DNA from: Silicimonas sp.
GTDB taxonomy: Bacteria > Pseudomonadota > Alphaproteobacteria > Rhodobacterales > Rhodobacteraceae
DNA length: 64,000 bases
Assembly: GCA_013002465.1 (NCBI GenBank)
Contig: JABDJO010000099.1
Coordinates: 1 to 64,000 of the forward strand
Reading direction: 5' to 3'
A program made the translations under genes and the position numbers. Under the pieces are notes generated by a model that ran no database searches, was not told the origin of the DNA, and worked only from the letters and a program-made list of their open reading frames with translations. Shown here in pieces: positions 7,405 to 47,043 of this stretch. Position 1 is the stretch's first letter. Every line of letters begins with the position of its first letter.

Positions 7405-9108
7405 TTAATTCCAGCAGCTTACCAACACGGTCAGATCAGCTGCCAGAAGCGTCAGGTCCTCGGGCGCCATTTCCTCGCCGGGATCGGCCGCCGCCGGGTT
7501 GACGCCATTGGCTGACAGGAACTCGGCCAGAACCGGCGCGTCGGCGGCGAAGGCCACATCGTCGGGCAGTTTGCGCGCGGACGCCCCACGGTCCAGCAGC
7601 ATCCCCATGACCGCCCCCGAACCGTCAAAGACCGGCCCTCCGGCATCGCCGGGCTCGCTGATGACCGACAGGCGCTGCACCCGGTCGTCGCCGTTCAACC
7701 CCTTGAGGTCGGCCAGCGTGCCATAGGTCAGCGAAGGCGCCGACAACACGCCGCCAAAGCTGAACCCGGAAACCGCAACATCCGACTGCAAGCGCGGCTC
7801 GACCGCGGCAAGGCGGGCCACCGACAAGGGGGCGAGCGTTTGACGGGGTTTCAGGATGGCAAGGCCAAGACCTGTATCCTCGGCGGCGATGTCGGCCTCT
7901 GTGGCTTCGTTCAACGTGATGCGGCCACATTGGCGCACCGCCTCGTATGTGGTCAGAACCGTGCCTTCGCCGTCAATGAAAAAGCCCGACCGCGCCCGTT
8001 CCGCGCGCCGGATTTCCAGACCCGACAGCAGGTCGATGTTCTGCGGCCCACTTCCGGCATTGTCCGGCAACACGCCCGAGTTCGTACGAAAACTTTCCTG
8101 CATGGCAGACAGGGCCAGCCGGAACCGTTTGTCGTCGCCCTGGGGCCAGATCAGGGCATATCCCTTGACCGTGCCCGACGCGACGCGGGCATAGATGTAC
8201 GAGGTGATCTTGTCGTTGCTGCCCTCGATCGTGAAGGAATCGCGTCTTAGCGCACGCGGGCCATCGACCGGCGCCACTTCAAGGGTCTGCAGGATGTCAT
8301 AAAGCGCGGCCAGCGTGGTGGTGTCGCCGCTCTGGCTAATCAAAACAAGGCGAACCCCGTCGTCGGTGGTCGGCTTGAAATGGGCAAACGGCGCATCGTA
8401 GCGGTCGAATTCAACCATTTGTGCCGGAATATCCACCTCGATCCCAAGCGTCGGATCCACCAGGGGCCGGATATCCAGCGACCGTACAACGCTTTGATAA
8501 CCCTCGATCAATTCGCGCCGTTGCAGGGTGGTCAGAACTCCGGTCGGCTCATAGCGCTGCGCTTCCTGCCAGGCGGCCATGGCGCGGCGGGTTCCGGGAC
8601 CGAACGAGGCGTCGATGGTGGAATTATAAAATCCCTCCCACTTCAGCGCGACCTGCAATTCGGCGCGTTCCTCGCGGCTCAATTGTCGTTCGCCCTGGCG
8701 GGCCTCGGTGACGGTTTCCTCGCCGGGTTCAAGGGGGGGCAGGGGGTCTGCTGGCGTTTCGGCCCCGCTTCCCGGCAGCGCCGCCTGGCGTCCGTCGCCA
8801 AAGACCTGATCCTGAAAGCTGCGCCCGTCCGACACGAAGGCATCCGAAGGCACCTCACGCGAAACACGCAGTTCCAGAAGCTTCAGGCGCGCCTCGTCCT
8901 CGCCATAAGGGCCAAGGGCGATGACATGCCAGTTCGTGCCGGTCCGAAAGGCGTTCACGTCCGGCAAACGACTGGCATAATCGGCGGCGCGTTCCAGGGC
9001 CGAGGCCTCGGAGGGCTGGGCCTCGATCTGAACCCAGGCCTGGGCGTGGGCGAATACGGCCCAGAAAGAAAACCCGCAAACAGCGATACACACCTGCAAT
9101 AATCTCAT
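7405..9108 (-). CDS. Exported SPOR/peptidoglycan-binding protein with a degenerate trypsin-like domain
   Basis: A 567-residue protein that starts with a clear signal peptide (cleavage likely after AHA-Q). It then has a SPOR-like region (about residues 25-85), a peptidoglycan-binding repeat (about 150-200, with GFYNSTIDASFGPGTRRAM), and a C-terminal trypsin-fold domain (about 365-530). In that domain the usual HVV histidine is replaced in LTTYEAV (E389), the DLALL aspartate in GLGLAIL (G415), and the GDSGGP serine in GDAGGP (A489). I therefore infer a non-catalytic scaffold or sensor in the periplasm. The start at 9108 gives a proper signal peptide; an upstream TTG adds only three residues. 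It diverges from glyQ. Confidence 0.85.
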   Translation of the reverse strand: MRLLQVCIAVCGFSFWAVFAHAQAWVQIEAQPSEASALERAADYASRLPDVNAFRTGTNWHVIALGPYGEDEARLKLLELRVSREVPSDAFVSDGRSFQDQVFGDGRQAALPGSGAETPADPLPPLEPGEETVTEARQGERQLSREERAELQVALKWEGFYNSTIDASFGPGTRRAMAAWQEAQRYEPTGVLTTLQRRELIEGYQSVVRSLDIRPLVDPTLGIEVDIPAQMVEFDRYDAPFAHFKPTTDDGVRLVLISQSGDTTTLAALYDILQTLEVAPVDGPRALRRDSFTIEGSNDKITSYIYARVASGTVKGYALIWPQGDDKRFRLALSAMQESFRTNSGVLPDNAGSGPQNIDLLSGLEIRRAERARSGFFIDGEGTVLTTYEAVRQCGRITLNEATEADIAAEDTGLGLAILKPRQTLAPLSVARLAAVEPRLQSDVAVSGFSFGGVLSAPSLTYGTLADLKGLNGDDRVQRLSVISEPGDAGGPVFDGSGAVMGMLLDRGASARKLPDDVAFAADAPVLAEFLSANGVNPAAADPGEEMAPEDLTLLAADLTVLVSCWN

Positions 9109-36696: not shown

Positions 36697-37575
36697 ATGG
36701 TTGACGCTGTTGATTTGGAAGGGGGGCATCTGCCGGAAAGCGCGATCAAGCGGTACTGGGACGATGGGTTTTTGTTCCCGGTGCAGGTGATGAGCGCCGA
36801 GGCCGCAGCCCATGCCCGCGCCGAGCTTGAGGCCGTCGAGCGGGACTGGCTGGATGCCGGGTTGCCCTTGCCCTTGAACACCTACAAGCGGGTCAATGCC
36901 CAGGTGGTGATGCCGTTTCTTGCCGACATCGCCCAAAGCCCCGCCATTCTGGATGTGGTCGAAGGCATTCTTGGCCCCGACATTCTGATCTATGCCGCCG
37001 AGTTCTTCGTGAAAGAGCCCAAGACCAGCCATGTCGTGACCATGCACCAGGATCTGACCTATTGGGGGCTTGGGGCGATTGACGGGATGGTTACGGCCTG
37101 GCTTGCGCTGTCACCGGCAACGCGCGCTTCGGGGTGCATGGATTTCGTGCGCGGCAGTCACAAGAACCCGATCCTGCCGCATGAGGACAGTTTTGACGCC
37201 AACAATCTTCTCAGCCGGGGTCAGGAGGTTGCGGTCGACATTGCCGAAGCCGACAAGGTTCCGATCGAACTTGCGCCCGGGCAGATAAGCCTGCACCACG
37301 GGCTGACGATCCACGGATCGGGGCCGAACACCTCCAATGACAGGCGGATCGGCTGTGTGATCCGGTACATTCGCCCGGACATGGAACAGAAGGTGGGGGC
37401 GAAGGATTACGTGATGCACGCGCGCGGCGAAGACCGGTTCCGGCATTTTGTTCATGCGCCGAAACCAGACGCAAACTTTTCACCCGAAAGCCTTGCGATC
37501 TATGATGAAATCCGCGCCGAGCAATCCCGGACGATGATGAAGGGCGCGACAAAGAAAAACGAGATGTATTCATGA
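36697..37575 (+). CDS. Phytanoyl-CoA dioxygenase (PhyH) family oxygenase
   Basis: A 292-residue Fe(II)/2-oxoglutarate-dependent oxygenase. In MHQDLTYWG, H117 and D119 are the first two iron ligands; in GLTIHGSGPNTSNDRRIG, H206 is the third ligand and R217 the 2-oxoglutarate-binding arginine. The first 80 residues form the usual PhyH lid. GGGAGG at 36683-36688 supports the ATG. Its stop overlaps the start of an HD-domain protein, which recalls the PhnY (PhyH) and PhnZ (HD) pair that hydroxylates and then cleaves a phosphonate. The substrate here is unknown and no phosphonate transporter is in the window. Confidence 0.88.
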   Translation: MVDAVDLEGGHLPESAIKRYWDDGFLFPVQVMSAEAAAHARAELEAVERDWLDAGLPLPLNTYKRVNAQVVMPFLADIAQSPAILDVVEGILGPDILIYAAEFFVKEPKTSHVVTMHQDLTYWGLGAIDGMVTAWLALSPATRASGCMDFVRGSHKNPILPHEDSFDANNLLSRGQEVAVDIAEADKVPIELAPGQISLHHGLTIHGSGPNTSNDRRIGCVIRYIRPDMEQKVGAKDYVMHARGEDRFRHFVHAPKPDANFSPESLAIYDEIRAEQSRTMMKGATKKNEMYS

Positions 37576-38180
37576 TGGACCAGGTCAAATTCACCGCCAT
37601 GAAGGACGGCGACAAGGAAGATTACGACTTTCTGACCGCCCATGAGACCGAATACGCGGCCGGTACGGCGGATCGGTTGTTGAAGGCGCTGGTGTCGCTG
37701 GACGAAAGCATCGCAGGCTATCAGGTGACGCGGCTGGAACACTCGTTGCAGTCGGCCACGCGGGCCTGGCGGGACGGGGCGGATGTGGACTGGGTGGTGT
37801 CGGCGGTTCTGCATGACATCGGCGACATCTTCGCACCCCACAACCACGACGAATACGCCGCCTCGATCCTGCGTCCCTTCGTGCGCGAGCAATGCGCCTG
37901 GGTGGTGGAAAAGCACGGGGATTTTCAACTTTTGTATTTCGGCGAGCATGTGGGTGCGGACCCGATGAAGCGGAAAGCCTACGAGGGCCATCCCTATTAC
38001 GACGACTGCGCCGCGTTCTGCGAGACATGGGATCAGTCCAGTTTCGACCCCGCCTATGACACGCTGCCACTGGAGTTCTTTGCGCCGATGGTGCGCGAGG
38101 TTTTTGCCCGCAAACCTTATGATCCGTCGGTGGTTCGCACAGGCGCGCGTGAACCGCTGGTGGGCACGCCGCGACCATAG
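37572..38180 (+). CDS. HD-domain protein, possible PhnZ/TmpB-like mixed-valent diiron oxygenase
   Basis: A 202-residue helical HD protein. Metal-ligand candidates are H57 (RLEHSLQSA), H81 and D82 (LHDIGD), H90 or H92 (PHNHDEYAA), H115 (VEKHGDFQ) and D154 (ETWDQSS), the H-HD-H-H-D order of the MIOX/PhnZ oxygenases rather than the shorter H-HD-D order of plain phosphohydrolases. The EHSLQ-A element is also close to PhnZ as I remember it, but the substrate-contacting Y-x2-E of PhnZ is not obvious in front of H57. It overlaps the PhyH gene by four bases. A second ATG three bases later is possible. The substrate is unknown. Confidence 0.78.
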   Translation: MMDQVKFTAMKDGDKEDYDFLTAHETEYAAGTADRLLKALVSLDESIAGYQVTRLEHSLQSATRAWRDGADVDWVVSAVLHDIGDIFAPHNHDEYAASILRPFVREQCAWVVEKHGDFQLLYFGEHVGADPMKRKAYEGHPYYDDCAAFCETWDQSSFDPAYDTLPLEFFAPMVREVFARKPYDPSVVRTGAREPLVGTPRP

Positions 38181-38192
38181 GGGCGAAATGCT

Positions 38193-39386
38193 TTAGATCA
38201 CGCCGTCCTGTTTCAGGGTCTTTAGGTCCGCTTCGCTGACGCCAAGGCTGGTCCAGATCTCGGCATTGTGTTCACCAAGACGCGGGGGCGGGGTGTCCAC
38301 GCCCGGGGCCTTGGCATCAAGCTTGATGCCCGTGGTGGCCAGTTGCACGTCGCGGTCGACGCCCGGCACATCGGCAAAGGTCGTGAGGAACCCACGGTCC
38401 CGGACCTGGGGCGTCTCAAGGATAGCGGGCACGCTCAGAACCGCGCCGGCGGGCACGCCGATGGCGGTCAACTCGGTTTCCCAGTCACGGGCGGGGCGGT
38501 GTTTTAGCACCGCTTCCAGGTCGCGTTTCAGGGCCAGCCGGTTTCGCTTGCGGTCTTCGCGGGTTTTGTAGTCGGGGTGATCGCACAGGTGGCCAAGATT
38601 CAGGTGGTTGGCCAGAAGAACCCATTGTTCGTTCTTGTTGGCGGCGATGTTGATGGGCGTGTCTGCGGTGTCGAAGGTGCCCGAGGGGGCGGAGGTTACG
38701 TTCTCGTTGCCATTGGCAGAAGGTTCCACGCCCGCGACCAGATAGTTCGACACGACCCAGCCCATGGTGGCAAGCGTCGATTCCAGCATTGAGATGTCGA
38801 TAAACGTGCCCCTTGGATTTGCGTTCAGGGCGGCGGCGATGGCAAAGGCCGCGGTCAGGCCGCCAACGGTGTCGGCGACGGGATAGCCTGCGCGCAATGG
38901 TGCAGTATCTTTGTCGCCGGTGATCGACATGGCGCCCGAGGCGCCTTGGATGATCTGGTCATAGGCGGGGCGGTGAACCCAGGGGCCGTCCTGTCCGAAG
39001 CCGGAAATGGCGCAATAGATCAGGCGCGGATGGGCGTCGCGCAGGCTTTCATGGTCCAGGCCAAGGCGGGCCATGACGCCAGGGCGGAAGTTTTCGACCA
39101 GGACGTCGGCGGTGTCGACAAGCCGCAGGAACAGGGCTTTGCCCTTCGGGTGCTTTAGATTGAGCGTGACGGATTTCTTTCCGGCGTTCTGGGCCAGGAA
39201 CGAGACCCCCATGTGCCTTTCGCTAAGATCCGGGTCGGCCCCAAGCTGACGGGCCAGATCGCCGCGCCCGACTGCTTCGACCTTGATGACTTCGGCGCCG
39301 AGATGGGCCAGGTGATGGCAGCAAAAGGGGCCTGCCAGTACGTTGGTCAAATCCAGAACGCGGATCCCGTGAAGCGGTTTTGGCAT
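38193..39386 (-). CDS. CaiB/BaiF (class III) CoA-transferase
   Basis: A 397-residue class III CoA-transferase. PLHGIRVLDLTNVLAGPFCCHHLAHLGAEVIKVE is the family's N-terminal Rossmann-like segment, NLKHPKGKALFLRLVDTADVLVENFRPGVM the middle, and SGFGQDGPWVHRPAYDQIIQGASG the loop around the active site, where the catalytic aspartate usually lies in the AYD element. The enzyme moves CoA between two carboxylic acids. GGGAG precedes the ATG at 39386. It is convergent with the HD gene (12 bases apart) and is not obviously part of the same pathway. Confidence 0.9.
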   Translation of the reverse strand: MPKPLHGIRVLDLTNVLAGPFCCHHLAHLGAEVIKVEAVGRGDLARQLGADPDLSERHMGVSFLAQNAGKKSVTLNLKHPKGKALFLRLVDTADVLVENFRPGVMARLGLDHESLRDAHPRLIYCAISGFGQDGPWVHRPAYDQIIQGASGAMSITGDKDTAPLRAGYPVADTVGGLTAAFAIAAALNANPRGTFIDISMLESTLATMGWVVSNYLVAGVEPSANGNENVTSAPSGTFDTADTPINIAANKNEQWVLLANHLNLGHLCDHPDYKTREDRKRNRLALKRDLEAVLKHRPARDWETELTAIGVPAGAVLSVPAILETPQVRDRGFLTTFADVPGVDRDVQLATTGIKLDAKAPGVDTPPPRLGEHNAEIWTSLGVSEADLKTLKQDGVI

Positions 39387-39487
39387 GGTGCGTGGCTCCC
39401 TTTGAGGCCGGAGCCTATGGGCGGCGATGCGCTCTGCAAAGGCCAATATTTACCAACCCGGCCATGGTGGGATGCCGGGCCACTGGG

Positions 39488-42971: not shown

Positions 42972-43640
42972 ATGGAGGACTGGGTCGCAATAAAATGGAT
43001 GGATTCCATGCAAGAACTTGCAATTGGTGGTGTCAGAACGCACGCCTCGTCCAACCGGTCTAAAAGACTGCGGATGAGCGAGTCTCACTCAGGGTTGAGC
43101 GTTACCGAGTTTTCGAAAAAGCAGAATGACAGCGCCTATTACATGGAAATGGCGTTCAAGCTGGTTGGAGTCCTTTTGATCCCGGCGGGCGGTATCGTGA
43201 TGTTCCTACCCCAGATCGTGGCCGGGCACGCTTCGTCCGTGACGCAGGTTGCCATGCTGGCGGCTTTCGTGTTTTGCGGCGTCGCCCTGCATCGCTGGGC
43301 CGACAAGGGTTTTCGCCGCCGCATTCACATCAATCCGACGCGCCGCGAGTTGTGTATCGGGACGCTGAATGCCGATAACCGATTTTGCCGGCGGTCGTCC
43401 TATGGGGCCGATCTGATCGAGAGTTTCTTCATTGTGCGTTCGAAGGACCCAAAGACCCCTGCCAAGCTGACCATGCGGCTGAAGGCCGGGGCGCGGTCGA
43501 TTTGCCTGTTCGAAGGCAGTGAAGCGGCATTGGTGCCGGTGCTTGAGCGCATCTCGAAGGTGATGCAGCCGCCACAGCAGCGCAACCGGCGGGTCCGCAC
43601 CCAGGCCAATGGCGGATTTATCCGCGTGTCGTTCGGCTAG
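42972..43640 (+). CDS. Uncharacterised two-helix membrane protein
   Basis: I do not recognise this protein. Read from 42972 it has 222 residues, with a charged N-terminus, two hydrophobic segments (about residues 61-84 and 90-110), then a basic cytoplasmic domain (GFRRRIHINPTRREL, LTMRLKAGARSICLF). The layout resembles PH-like or photosynthetic-complex-assembly-type membrane proteins, but no clear family signature is seen. The start is uncertain: in-frame ATGs also occur at 42999, 43008 and 43074, and the last would give a compact protein of 188 residues. It lies 99 bases after tRNA-Leu and converges with the LysR gene. Confidence 0.65.
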   Translation: MEDWVAIKWMDSMQELAIGGVRTHASSNRSKRLRMSESHSGLSVTEFSKKQNDSAYYMEMAFKLVGVLLIPAGGIVMFLPQIVAGHASSVTQVAMLAAFVFCGVALHRWADKGFRRRIHINPTRRELCIGTLNADNRFCRRSSYGADLIESFFIVRSKDPKTPAKLTMRLKAGARSICLFEGSEAALVPVLERISKVMQPPQQRNRRVRTQANGGFIRVSFG

Positions 43641-44527
43641 GCACCACGCGCAAACGTCGCGCTTACGCGTTTTTGCACAATCCGCGCGAGGTCCTCGGCC
43701 AGGGCAATGCCGGTGGCCCGTTCGCGCAACAGGGCCGTCACCGGGCGGCGGTCCGACAACCCCTTGATCCTTCGGAAGGCCAGGTCGTTCGGCAGGATGT
43801 GGGCGACCGTTTCGGGCAGGATGGTGACCCAGGTGCCGGTGCGCACCATGGCAATCAGCGACAGGGTGTTGGGCACGCTGATGTGGGCTTCGGCTATCAC
43901 CCGGCGGACGGCGGGGGTTTCAATCATATCGCAAAGGTTGTTGCTGATGAACCCGGCGGCGGACACATCGTCGATCGTCACCGTTTTCTTTCGGACCGCG
44001 ATCGGATGTGCGGGCGCGGTGATCAGTCCGAAGCGGTCCTCGAACAAGGGGATGCTGCGCACCCCGTTCAGCGTGTGTTTGCCGGACACAATGCCAAGGT
44101 CGGCCTGACCCTGCAAAAGCGCGCGGATGATCTGTTCGGTGTCGGCATCGCGCAGTTCGACCTTCAGGCCGGGATGCCGGTCGGTCAGGGTCTGGATGGC
44201 CGAGGGAAAGACCAGCCCCGCAACCGAGGGCACCGAGGCGATGCGGATCAAGCCATGCGGTGAACGCGCCGAGGTTTCGATCGCGCCGACCGTGGTGTCG
44301 AACTGGCGGATCTGTTCCTGGGACAGCGCAAAGATTTCGGTGCCAAGGGGGGTCAGCCGGTTCTTGCGCTCGCTTTCGAACAGGCGTTGACCCAGGTGGT
44401 CTTCCAACTGCTTCAGCGTCATCGACACCGCCGAGGGCGTGCGCCCCAGGCGCATGGCCGCTTCGGCAAGGTTGCCGGTTTGTGCCACAGTGCTGAAGGT
44501 GCGGAGCATTTCGATCTTTATAGCCAT
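43637..44527 (-). CDS. LysR family transcriptional regulator
   Basis: A 296-residue regulator. The N-terminal helix-turn-helix (MLRTFSTVAQTGNLAEAAMRLGRTPSAVSMTLKQLEDHLG, given here in two halves in my reading) is standard, and the C-terminal part is a periplasmic-binding-protein-like effector domain from about residue 90. I chose the ATG at 44527, where the family begins; the longer reading would cross the whole intergenic operator. It is divergent from the aldehyde dehydrogenase operon, and AATTTC-TTT-GAAATT lies in its promoter region, so it probably controls that operon in response to a pathway intermediate. Confidence 0.92.
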   Translation of the reverse strand: MAIKIEMLRTFSTVAQTGNLAEAAMRLGRTPSAVSMTLKQLEDHLGQRLFESERKNRLTPLGTEIFALSQEQIRQFDTTVGAIETSARSPHGLIRIASVPSVAGLVFPSAIQTLTDRHPGLKVELRDADTEQIIRALLQGQADLGIVSGKHTLNGVRSIPLFEDRFGLITAPAHPIAVRKKTVTIDDVSAAGFISNNLCDMIETPAVRRVIAEAHISVPNTLSLIAMVRTGTWVTILPETVAHILPNDLAFRRIKGLSDRRPVTALLRERATGIALAEDLARIVQKRVSATFARGA

Positions 44528-44530
44528 TTC

Positions 44531-44545
44531 AATTTCTTTGAAATT
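44531..44545. promoter_or_regulatory. Likely LysR operator in the divergent promoter region
   Basis: AATTTC (44531-44536) and GAAATT (44540-44545) make a perfect six-base inverted repeat with a TTT spacer, four bases from the LysR start and 75 bases from the aldehyde dehydrogenase start. The T-N11-A character fits a LysR-type recognition site. Confidence 0.55.
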
Positions 44546-44620
44546 AAGTTCAGTAGTTTGAGTTTGACTGATATTGCCCGTGGCGTCCACCTTAGGGTGA
44601 ATTTCGATCAGGGCAGGACC

Positions 44621-46072
44621 ATGACAGATATCAAACAGAACTTGATCGCCGGCGACTGGGTTGCGGGCGAAGGCGAAGTCGAAAACCGCAATCCTTCGGA
44701 TCTGGGCGACCTTGTCGGGGTTTTCGCACAAGCCAGTGCGGATCAGTTGGACGCAACGCTGGAGCAGGCCCGGCGCGCGCAGGCGGAATGGGCCGGTGTG
44801 GGCATGGAGGCCAAGCAGGCCGTGCTGATGGCCATTGGCAACGAGTTGATGGCGCGCGCCGAGGAATTGGGCCGGTTGCTTAGCCGCGAAGAAGGCAAGC
44901 CCCTGGCTGAAGGCAAGGGCGAGGTTTACCGCGCGGGTCAGTTTTTCACCTATTATGCCGCCGAATGTCTGCGCCAGATCGGGGAAAACGCGGATTCGGT
45001 GCGCCCCGGTGTCGAGGTTGACGTGCGGCGCGAGCCCGTGGGCGTGGTCGCCGTGATCAGCCCATGGAACTTCCCCACGGCCACCGCATCCTGGAAAATC
45101 GCGCCGGCCCTTTGTTATGGCAATGCCGTGGTCTGGAAACCGGCCAATGCAACCCCGGCCTCGGCCGTTGCCCTGGCCGAGATCATCCAGCGTCAGGACA
45201 TCCCCAGGGGCCTATTTTCGCTGGTCATGGGGTCGGGCCGTTCGGTGGGCCAGAAGTTGGTCGAAAGCCCGATGGTCAATGCGATTTCCTTCACCGGTTC
45301 GGTGCCCGTGGGCAAGGGGATCGCGGCGGCGGCGATCCAGAACCTGACCAAGGTGCAGATGGAGATGGGATCGAAGAACGCGCTGGCTGTGATGGACGAT
45401 GGCGATCTGGATCTGGCCGTCGGCGTGGCCTTGGGCGGGGCCTTCGGCGGCACGGGCCAGAAATGCACCGCGTCGTCGCGGCTGATCGTGCATGAGGGCA
45501 TACATGACGCCTTTGTCGAAAAGCTGGTGGCGGGGGCCAAGGCCATGAAGGTGGGTCATGCATTGGAGGACGGCACACAGATGGGGCCGGTCGTCAGCGA
45601 GCAACAGTTGAACGAGAACCTGGCCTATGTCGAGCTTGGCACATCCGAGGGCGCGGAACTGGCCTGTGGCGGTCAACGGCTCGATATGCCGCACCAGGGC
45701 TTTTACATGTCCCCGGGTGTTTTTGTCGGCACCACCAACGACATGCGGATCAACCGCGAAGAGATGTTCGCGCCCCTGACCGCCGTCATCAAGGTGGGCA
45801 GTTATGACGAAGCCCTGGCGACCGTCAACGACACCAACTTCGGTCTGACCTCGGGCATCGTCACGCGCGATCTGGCGCGGGCGACCCACTTTCGCCGGAA
45901 CGCCAGAACGGGGGTGGTCACGGTCAACCTGCCGACGGCGGGAACCGATTATCACGTGCCCTTTGGGGGGCGTGGCGACAGTTCTTACGGCCCGCGCGAG
46001 CAGGGCAAGGCGGCGGCCGAGTTCTATACCACGGTCAAGACGGCTTATATCAGCGCGGGCACCCCGTCATGA
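44621..46072 (+). CDS. NAD(P)-dependent aldehyde dehydrogenase (possibly 2-oxoglutarate-semialdehyde type)
   Basis: A 483-residue aldehyde dehydrogenase. VAVISPWNFPTATASWKIAPAL forms the cofactor-binding region, SFTGSVPVGKGI the Rossmann loop, QMEMGSKNALAVMDD contains the general base E248, and GGTGQKCTASSRLIV the nucleophile C282, at the usual 34-residue spacing. The GQKCTASSR form of the cysteine motif is one I associate with 2-oxoglutarate-semialdehyde and succinate-semialdehyde-type enzymes, but this is not decisive. It is the first gene of an operon controlled by the divergent LysR and overlaps the next gene by four bases. Confidence 0.9.
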   Translation: MTDIKQNLIAGDWVAGEGEVENRNPSDLGDLVGVFAQASADQLDATLEQARRAQAEWAGVGMEAKQAVLMAIGNELMARAEELGRLLSREEGKPLAEGKGEVYRAGQFFTYYAAECLRQIGENADSVRPGVEVDVRREPVGVVAVISPWNFPTATASWKIAPALCYGNAVVWKPANATPASAVALAEIIQRQDIPRGLFSLVMGSGRSVGQKLVESPMVNAISFTGSVPVGKGIAAAAIQNLTKVQMEMGSKNALAVMDDGDLDLAVGVALGGAFGGTGQKCTASSRLIVHEGIHDAFVEKLVAGAKAMKVGHALEDGTQMGPVVSEQQLNENLAYVELGTSEGAELACGGQRLDMPHQGFYMSPGVFVGTTNDMRINREEMFAPLTAVIKVGSYDEALATVNDTNFGLTSGIVTRDLARATHFRRNARTGVVTVNLPTAGTDYHVPFGGRGDSSYGPREQGKAAAEFYTTVKTAYISAGTPS

Positions 46073-47043
46073 GGATCGACTGCCTGCAATATGCCAATTG
46101 GTCGGAAAAGATTTTCCGCCAGATGCGCGAAGGCAAGGTGGACGCGGTGCAGGTGACGATCTCGTACCACGAGATGTTCCGCGAGACGGTGCAGAACTTC
46201 GAACAATGGAACCGCTGGTTCGAGCAGTTCCCGGATCTGATCATGAAGGGTGAGTGGGCCAGCGACATCGACCGCGCACGCGAAACCGGGCGGACGGCGA
46301 TCTTTTTCGGGTTTCAGAACCCCAGTCCCATGGAGGACGACATCGGGCTGGTGGAAATTCTGCACACGCTGGGCGCCCGGTTCATGCAGTTGACCTATAA
46401 CAACCAGTCCCTGCTGGCGACGGGGTGTTACGAGGCCGAGGACCCCGGCATCACGCGCATGGGACGTCAGGTCATCAAGGAAATGAACCGTGTCGGTCTG
46501 GTCATCGACATGAGCCATTCCGCGGATCGCTCGACCATCGAGGCGGCTGATTTGTCCGAGCGCCCGATTGCGATCACCCATGCCAATCCGCATGCGTGGT
46601 CTCCGGCCCTTCGCAACAAGAAGGACGATGTGATCCGTGCGGTCACCGAAAACGGTGGGATGCTGGGCTTTTCGATCTATCCTCATCATCTGAAGGATAA
46701 ATCGGACTGCACGTTGGAAAGCTTTTGCGGGATGATCGGGGATACGGGCGAGAAATATGGGTTTGAGCAATTGGGCATCGGAACCGACCTTTGCCAGGAC
46801 CAGCCCGACAGCGTGGTCGAGTGGATGCGGGTCGGTCGCTGGTCCAAGGAGATCGACTATGGCGAAGGATCGGCGGCGGCGCCGGGGTTTCCGCCGATGC
46901 CGGACTGGTTCAGGGACAACCGCGATTTCGGCAACATCGAAGCCGGTTTGAAGGCGGTCGGCATGAACGACGACGAGGTTCAGGGGATCATGGGCGGCAA
47001 CTGGTACAGGTTCTTTGACGAAAACTTCGGGCCCCGGTCATGA
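46069..47043 (+). CDS. M19 (renal dipeptidase-like) family protein with degenerate metal site
   Basis: A 324-residue barrel protein of the membrane-dipeptidase (M19) family. Late zinc histidines are kept in IDMSHSADRS and AITHANPHAW, and the catalytic-site aspartate in GIGTDLCQD. The N-terminal DxHxD that binds the first zinc reads IDCLQY here, and the bridging glutamate has become glutamine in FGFQNPSP. A binuclear dipeptidase is therefore unlikely; a mononuclear amidohydrolase, deaminase or isomerase would fit better. It overlaps the aldehyde dehydrogenase gene upstream and the unknown gene downstream by four bases each. Confidence 0.85.
   Translation: MRIDCLQYANWSEKIFRQMREGKVDAVQVTISYHEMFRETVQNFEQWNRWFEQFPDLIMKGEWASDIDRARETGRTAIFFGFQNPSPMEDDIGLVEILHTLGARFMQLTYNNQSLLATGCYEAEDPGITRMGRQVIKEMNRVGLVIDMSHSADRSTIEAADLSERPIAITHANPHAWSPALRNKKDDVIRAVTENGGMLGFSIYPHHLKDKSDCTLESFCGMIGDTGEKYGFEQLGIGTDLCQDQPDSVVEWMRVGRWSKEIDYGEGSAAAPGFPPMPDWFRDNRDFGNIEAGLKAVGMNDDEVQGIMGGNWYRFFDENFGPRS

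Follow-up and report, generated by a model that had tools for sequence, protein, structure and literature searches.

What does a PhyH-type oxygenase do together with an HD-domain protein when their genes overlap? The question is raised by a locus in Silicimonas sp. (Rhodobacteraceae), of which a stretch of 64,000 nucleotides (the window) was analysed. The original prediction likened the two proteins to PhnY and PhnZ, which hydroxylate and then cleave 2-aminoethylphosphonate, and proposed either a different phosphonate or another hydroxylated compound as substrate. The HD-domain oxygenases described in a review are MIOX, PhnZ and TmpB only (PMC8177086), and NCBIfam additionally lists a hydroxymethylphosphonate HD enzyme. 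In the chemistry common to MIOX, PhnZ and TmpB the substrate carbinol binds Fe1 and O2 binds Fe2, and the superoxo takes the hydrogen of the carbinol, after which the bond next to it is broken (PMC8177086). TmpA and TmpB convert 2-trimethylaminoethylphosphonate to glycine betaine and phosphate.

Results

The gene pair and its enzymes

The predicted anatomy was recovered in full: both open reading frames were found, with an ATGA common to the two, and all six ligands of the order H-HD-H-H-D are present in the HD protein and conserved among its relatives.

36697–37575, forward strand: PhyH-type Fe(II)/2-oxoglutarate oxygenase, 292 amino acids (Pfam PhyH, E-value 2.3e-29)
37045–37053, forward strand: H117-Q118-D119, with ligands one and two of the iron triad (H117, D119), both conserved without exception among the aligned PhyH sequences
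37312–37314, forward strand: H206, distal iron ligand, invariant in the PhyH alignment
37345–37347, forward strand: R217, probable 2-oxoglutarate arginine, invariant, 11 residues past H206
37572–37575, forward strand: ATGA, 4-base overlap of the PhyH stop with the HD start
37572–38180, forward strand: HD-domain protein, oxygenase-like, 202 amino acids (Pfam HD, NCBIfam, fold)
37710–37721, forward strand: I47-A48-G49-Y50, site of the PhnZ/TmpB YxxE loop, motif absent (PhnZ alignment, family columns)
37731–37733, forward strand: R54, three residues before H57, invariant in the alignment of the window's group
37740–37742, forward strand: H57, metal ligand, invariant
37812–37817, forward strand: H81-D82, HD dyad, invariant
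37824–37826, forward strand: D85, at the position of PhnZ His62
37845–37847, forward strand: H92, metal ligand, invariant in alignment A1 and retained in the family rows
37914–37916, forward strand: H115, metal ligand, invariant
37926–37928, forward strand: Q119, at the position of PhnZ Lys108
38031–38033, forward strand: D154, metal ligand, invariant
38193–39446, convergent with the HD gene: CaiB-type CoA-transferase
43637–47043: LysR gene divergent from genes for an aldehyde dehydrogenase and an M19 dipeptidase

The HD gene is present in a single copy in its own genome. Including the window, the PhyH-HD pair was found at 36 loci, mostly in Rhodobacteraceae and often with a divergent LysR gene; the identical 4-base overlap occurs in 20 of the 36, and in nearly all others the genes are at most 35 bases apart. 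Because the pair recurs at so many loci and the overlap is repeated, the pairing is not due to chance. The CaiB-like CoA-transferase and SLAC1 of the window were discarded as members of the pathway, as neither is found beside the pair in relatives. The LysR, aldehyde dehydrogenase and M19 dipeptidase genes lie at least 5 kb from the pair and are possibly a separate catabolic unit.

The first enzyme scores 103.6 bits against the Pfam PhyH model (PF05721, cut-off 22) and carries the HxD...H...R residues of a PhyH-type Fe(II)/2-oxoglutarate oxygenase; R217 we take to be the 2-oxoglutarate arginine from what is known of the PhyH family. Its best solved relative is ThoJ (6zyk/6zyl, named as such in the title of the PDB entry), and the proteins that its structure model (pLDDT 88.8) resembles most are ThoJ, SyrB2 and amino-acid hydroxylases. 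A search within 1.5 kb of 30 TmpB/Phn-HD genes gave no relative of the window PhyH, a result compatible with either a near or a distant relation to PhnY.

The HD protein stands apart from PhnZ and TmpB

The window HD protein narrowly passes the Pfam HD model (24.4 bits, cut-off 22) and narrowly misses that of MIOX (PF05153; 21.8 bits, cut-off 25). Its NCBIfam matches are limited to three families, all of them below cut-off, i.e., Phn-HD (TIGR03276; 33.8 bits against 214.6), TmpB (NF049941; 29.8 bits against 300) and the hydroxymethylphosphonate dioxygenase PhnZ1 (NF052439; 28.5 bits against 300). Membership of PhnZ, TmpB, PhnZ1 or MIOX was rejected on these curated cut-offs and on motifs. A column comparison of 138 sequences showed that PhnZ and TmpB carry YxxE, mostly HDxGH and a Lys four residues past the fourth ligand, whereas the window's family has a Gly with Tyr or Phe after it in most cases, then HDxGD, and Phe-Gln. 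The YxxE motif, said earlier to be out of register, is in fact replaced, with Y-I-G-E of PhnZ aligned to I-A-G-Y. The position of PhnZ His62 is Asp in all rows of the new family and His in nearly all of PhnZ and TmpB; that of Lys108 is Gln in all rows of the new family and Lys in all of PhnZ and TmpB. His62 and Lys108 are presumably the phosphonate contacts of PhnZ.

The fold is that of the oxygenases. A model was built with AlphaFold2 from the protein and 55 relatives (mean pLDDT 90.9), and in a Foldseek search of the PDB its significant matches were PhnZ (4e-6) and TmpB (1e-5) only. The VIA-align Z scores were 17.0 for PhnZ, 16.2 for TmpB, and 11.2 and 10.1 for MIOX; among the HD hydrolases listed none exceeded 8.0. 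The fold by itself is compatible with hydrolysis. The tree sets the window's family apart from PhnZ and TmpB by a fully supported branch whose length is 1.76 changes per column to either side of the root. The original prediction was thus sound in likening the layout and the HD fold to PhnY/PhnZ, and also in holding that the protein is no canonical PhnZ, given the low family scores, the missing YxxE and the long branch; a firm placement among phosphohydrolases, which it had named as evidence against itself, was not what the Foldseek search returned. We conclude that the HD protein belongs to a family of HD oxygenase-like enzymes that is new to description and stands apart from PhnZ and TmpB. 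By analogy it would be a mixed-valent diiron oxygenase that uses O2.

This family is widespread. Its profile was found in 109 of 385 sampled Alphaproteobacteria genomes (73 of 277 genera), including genomes of 1.2–1.8 Mb, some with about 30% GC, and also on proteobacterial plasmids outside Alphaproteobacteria. One plasmid relative is annotated as "inositol oxygenase family protein".

The HD gene has different hydroxylase partners

The neighbours of HD genes in other taxa include several kinds of oxygenase. In Mesorhizobium, Ensifer and Rhizobium the HD gene follows or lies near genes for a PF04909 protein, which matches 8sm7, SfbO and AibH1H2, and a Rieske ferredoxin. At two loci (L031, 6503–8624; L279, 5520–7585) HD forms one unit with a Rieske ferredoxin and a dinuclear oxygenase of the AibH type. 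Other taxa have a TauD-family protein directly upstream of HD, below the TmpA cut-off, with TmpA and gamma-butyrobetaine dioxygenase as best solved relatives, and a more distant HD clade has GbcA/CntA-like Rieske oxygenases nearby. According to the tree, the PhyH, AibH-type and carnitine contexts all fall inside one clade of closely related HD proteins, and the HD protein of a locus with PhyH as partner (L117) is sister to one with a TmpA-like partner (L121; support 98). Hydroxylases are swapped in front of the same HD family, which fits an HD substrate whose hydroxyl group is installed by various enzymes or is already there, as in carnitine.

The other neighbours point to quaternary amines. 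In Hoeflea and Defluviimonas the HD gene is flanked by those for a beta-keto acid cleavage enzyme (BKACE) and a fusion of carnitine 3-dehydrogenase with a thioesterase, an association that recurs in a distant low-GC genome (L134). The Pseudomonas plasmid pF045_1 (L272, 6872–12829) encodes a TmpA-like protein, HD, a choline-binding protein, a choline dehydrogenase and an aldehyde dehydrogenase; a divergent LysR gene and one for a large CoA-transferase lie upstream. A choline-binding protein is also encoded near HD in Ensifer, and a choline dehydrogenase at locus L125.

Some surroundings are of a different kind. In many genomes HD occurs alone near valS or purF. In two small genomes of 29–30% GC (L114, L120) a purF-like gene lies on one side of HD and a pair of genes for glutamate-cysteine ligase and glutathione synthetase on the other, with no hydroxylase neighbour. 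A purine or glutathione role, suggested by purF and glutamate-cysteine ligase in the small genomes, was set aside as these are regarded as housekeeping neighbours. On a Phaeobacter plasmid (L270, 8004–10486) HD is followed by genes for a protein of the sterol-desaturase/fatty-acid-hydroxylase family and a PanB-like protein; the former family is also found 3' of HD at loci L041 and L069. Locus L159 has a TmpA/TmpB pair and a second butyrobetaine-hydroxylase-like gene, and its contig also carries a carnitine dehydrogenase gene at a distance of about 2 kb.

Ten-kilobase regions around HD genes were compared with 80 control regions at arbitrary positions in the same genome set. The neighbour queries were picked from HD loci after inspection and the relatives share ancestry, i.e., are not independent, and read in this light GbcA/CntA-like Rieske oxygenases were present in 13 of 80 regions around divergent HD genes against none of the controls (p = 7e-5), TmpA-like proteins and PhyH in 7 of 80 each, again against none, and any quaternary-amine family in 25 against 2. 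Acyl-CoA dehydrogenase showed no enrichment (5 of 80 divergent HD regions, 8 of 80 controls). Within the window's own group, PhyH lies within 5 kb of HD in 35 of 80 relatives, and an AibH-type oxygenase with Rieske ferredoxin was found in 14 of 80, both against 0 of 80 controls. Across the 385 genomes HD co-occurs with carnitine dehydrogenase at an odds ratio of 11.6 (23.5 for the closer HD group) and with the unrelated inositol gene iolE at 3.3 (5.2), these being raw ratios that ignore phylogeny and genome size.

Discussion

Proposed function of the pair

We infer the substrate class, step order, product and O2 chemistry of the pair as follows. The reading that we favour, tentatively, is that PhyH hydroxylates a quaternary-ammonium acid and that HD oxidatively cleaves the product, perhaps to glycine betaine. 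With Fe(II), O2 and 2-oxoglutarate, PhyH would place a hydroxyl group on an aliphatic carbon of a small acid of the betaine or carnitine type. The putative HD diiron enzyme would bind the product through the new carbinol and, with O2, would cut the adjacent bond, most likely C-C and not C-P, to leave glycine betaine or another shortened betaine. The hydroxylation step may in relatives be carried out by TmpA/butyrobetaine-hydroxylase-like enzymes, by AibH-type enzymes with Rieske ferredoxin or by Rieske oxygenases, or the HD substrate may arrive already hydroxylated, like carnitine.

One close parallel is the TmpA/TmpB system. It shares with the window pair the HD fold and the logic of a hydroxylase followed by an HD enzyme, and relatives of the window HD protein use TmpA-like hydroxylases and sit amid quaternary-amine genes. 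It differs in that the partner of the window HD protein is PhyH and not TmpA, and in the long branch between the HD families. An analogous carboxylate route would have PhyH hydroxylate a betaine-type acid and HD make the C-C cut. Beta-alanine betaine is one candidate, as by analogy it would keep the TmpA geometry with a carboxylate replacing the phosphonate; a carnitine-type acid is another candidate and a better fit to the operons, and the data do not choose between the two. No quaternary-amine genes flank the window pair itself, and the link comes from its relatives. The carnitine operon of the same genome holds no HD gene. The carnitine route reaches glycine betaine without an HD step. In the open-licence literature no HD protein in carnitine metabolism and no PhyH-HD pair in Rhodobacteraceae was found.

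A broader claim, which we regard as doubtful, is that these HD proteins are widespread undescribed diiron oxygenases that yield glycine betaine by cutting a C-C bond of hydroxylated betaines, e.g., of a carnitine-type acid or of 2-hydroxy-beta-alanine betaine. This would amount to a TmpA/TmpB route for carboxylates, with at least three unrelated hydroxylases exchanged ahead of one HD enzyme. Distant members of the family may act on other substrates.

Do the two enzymes act together?

It is unlikely, yet worth weighing, that PhyH and HD act separately. The PhyH product would then be used by other enzymes (e.g., by carnitine dehydrogenase if it resembles carnitine), and HD would be an accessory step of quaternary-amine catabolism with its own substrate. 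PhyH was found in 32 of 168 Rhodobacterales genomes, with HD adjacent in 21 of the 32. Nine of the 32 have no strong HD gene on the contig of PhyH, and in the seven of these nine where the PhyH neighbourhood was read no HD homologue was found in it. Conversely, a strong HD gene is present in 50 genomes, in 29 of which no PhyH adjoins it, and HD is solitary in many genomes. One chromosomal site near valS is seen with PhyH alone in some genomes and with HD alone in others, and LysR remains with PhyH where HD is missing, which would agree with separate roles. At loci L280–L286 PhyH is kept without HD, mostly near a valS-sized gene and in some with LysR. The genes are thus separable and the partnership of the enzymes, though real, is not obligatory; strict obligate pairing was rejected because each gene survives without the other in related genomes. 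A lack of dependence between the two enzymes, which the original prediction had named as evidence against itself, is seen in part. The tight overlap in most pairs and the repeated pairing of HD with unrelated oxygenases argue against wholly separate action.

Which substrate?

It is rather improbable that HD is an oxygenase for some other hydroxylated small molecule (a polyol, hydroxy acid or amino acid) and that the quaternary-amine neighbours concern part of the family only. MIOX cleaves a polyol, the PhyH model is nearest to ThoJ, SyrB2 and amino-acid hydroxylases, and the remaining HD neighbours are diverse. Against this stand the independent carnitine, choline and betaine contexts in the window's own clade. 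MIOX resembles the window HD protein in its diiron ligand order and fold, and its C-C cutting provides a chemical model; the window protein is shorter, below the Pfam cut-off and in no inositol context.

Phosphonate is an unlikely substrate class for the pair. The corresponding scheme, in which PhyH hydroxylates C1 of a phosphonate and HD cuts the C-P bond to release phosphate, is likewise rather improbable, even though layout and fold class are shared with PhnY/PhnZ and TmpA-like partners occur among relatives. The pair is like PhnY/PhnZ in joining a PhyH-type 2-oxoglutarate oxygenase to an HD oxygenase fold with six ligands in a two-gene unit; it is unlike in the Asp and Gln at the His62 and Lys108 positions, which like the YxxE are replaced family-wide, and in having no phosphonate context around it. 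The scores fall far under the Phn-HD, TmpB and PhnZ1 cut-offs, PhnZ1 being matched as an HD oxygenase family and yet at less than the value that defines it. Relatives of the pair keep company with carnitine, choline and betaine genes, not with recognised phosphonate genes. Moreover, another contig of the genome (C12, L222) encodes a TmpA (513 bits, cut-off 400) and a TmpB (325.6 bits, cut-off 300). The order there reads as aminotransferase, phosphohydrolase-like protein, aldehyde dehydrogenase, TmpA, TmpB, second aminotransferase and EamA-like transporter, and judged from its genes this cluster appears to handle phosphonates. With a true TmpA/TmpB elsewhere in the genome, the pair in the window must be counted as a separate system. 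The C-P lyase PhnJ was absent in a search of the genome. The earlier remark that no phosphonate transporter is near was correct, as the window contains no relatives of phosphonate-binding proteins and those of the genome are confined to other contigs. Of the two substrate options first proposed, another hydroxylated compound is upheld; phosphonates as the leading class give way to the contexts of relatives, the changed phosphonate-side positions and the TmpA/TmpB cluster elsewhere in the genome.

HD phosphohydrolases are reported to be marked by an Arg at the third residue ahead of the first ligand His (PMC8177086). Nearly all members of the window's family in the 138-sequence comparison have this Arg, as does the window protein (R54), so the sequence is compatible with hydrolysis. 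YqeK illustrates that six ligands by themselves are no proof of oxygenase chemistry. That HD is a dinuclear phosphohydrolase or other hydrolase adjoining oxygenases by chance is nevertheless very improbable and was ruled down as the first-choice reading, since its fold is far more like that of oxygenases, its specific family matches are solely to oxygenases and its redox-enzyme neighbours are of several unrelated kinds.

Implications

A further HD oxygenase family, with members in over a quarter of the sampled Alphaproteobacteria, would extend this chemistry beyond phosphonates. If quaternary-ammonium acids are indeed cleaved by the pair, this would be an unrecognised route in betaine or carnitine turnover, relevant to marine carbon and nitrogen cycling. 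The partnership with HD also offers a physiological lead for the orphan AibH-type dinuclear monooxygenases. Enzymes of the AibH/SfbO type are amidohydrolase-related dinuclear C-H monooxygenases that use a Rieske ferredoxin, and their newer members are orphans (PMC10811679). A homologue of AibH2/SfbO with a Rieske ferredoxin partners HD in relatives from Mesorhizobium and Rhizobium, unlike in the window, where this type of oxygenase is absent; HD may be a clue to the substrate of the orphan 8sm7 homologues. In Ensifer (L015) a Rieske-ferredoxin-like fragment (7821–7967) lies immediately upstream of HD, and a complete unit of AibH-type oxygenase, ferredoxin and aldehyde dehydrogenase is found about 4 kb away.
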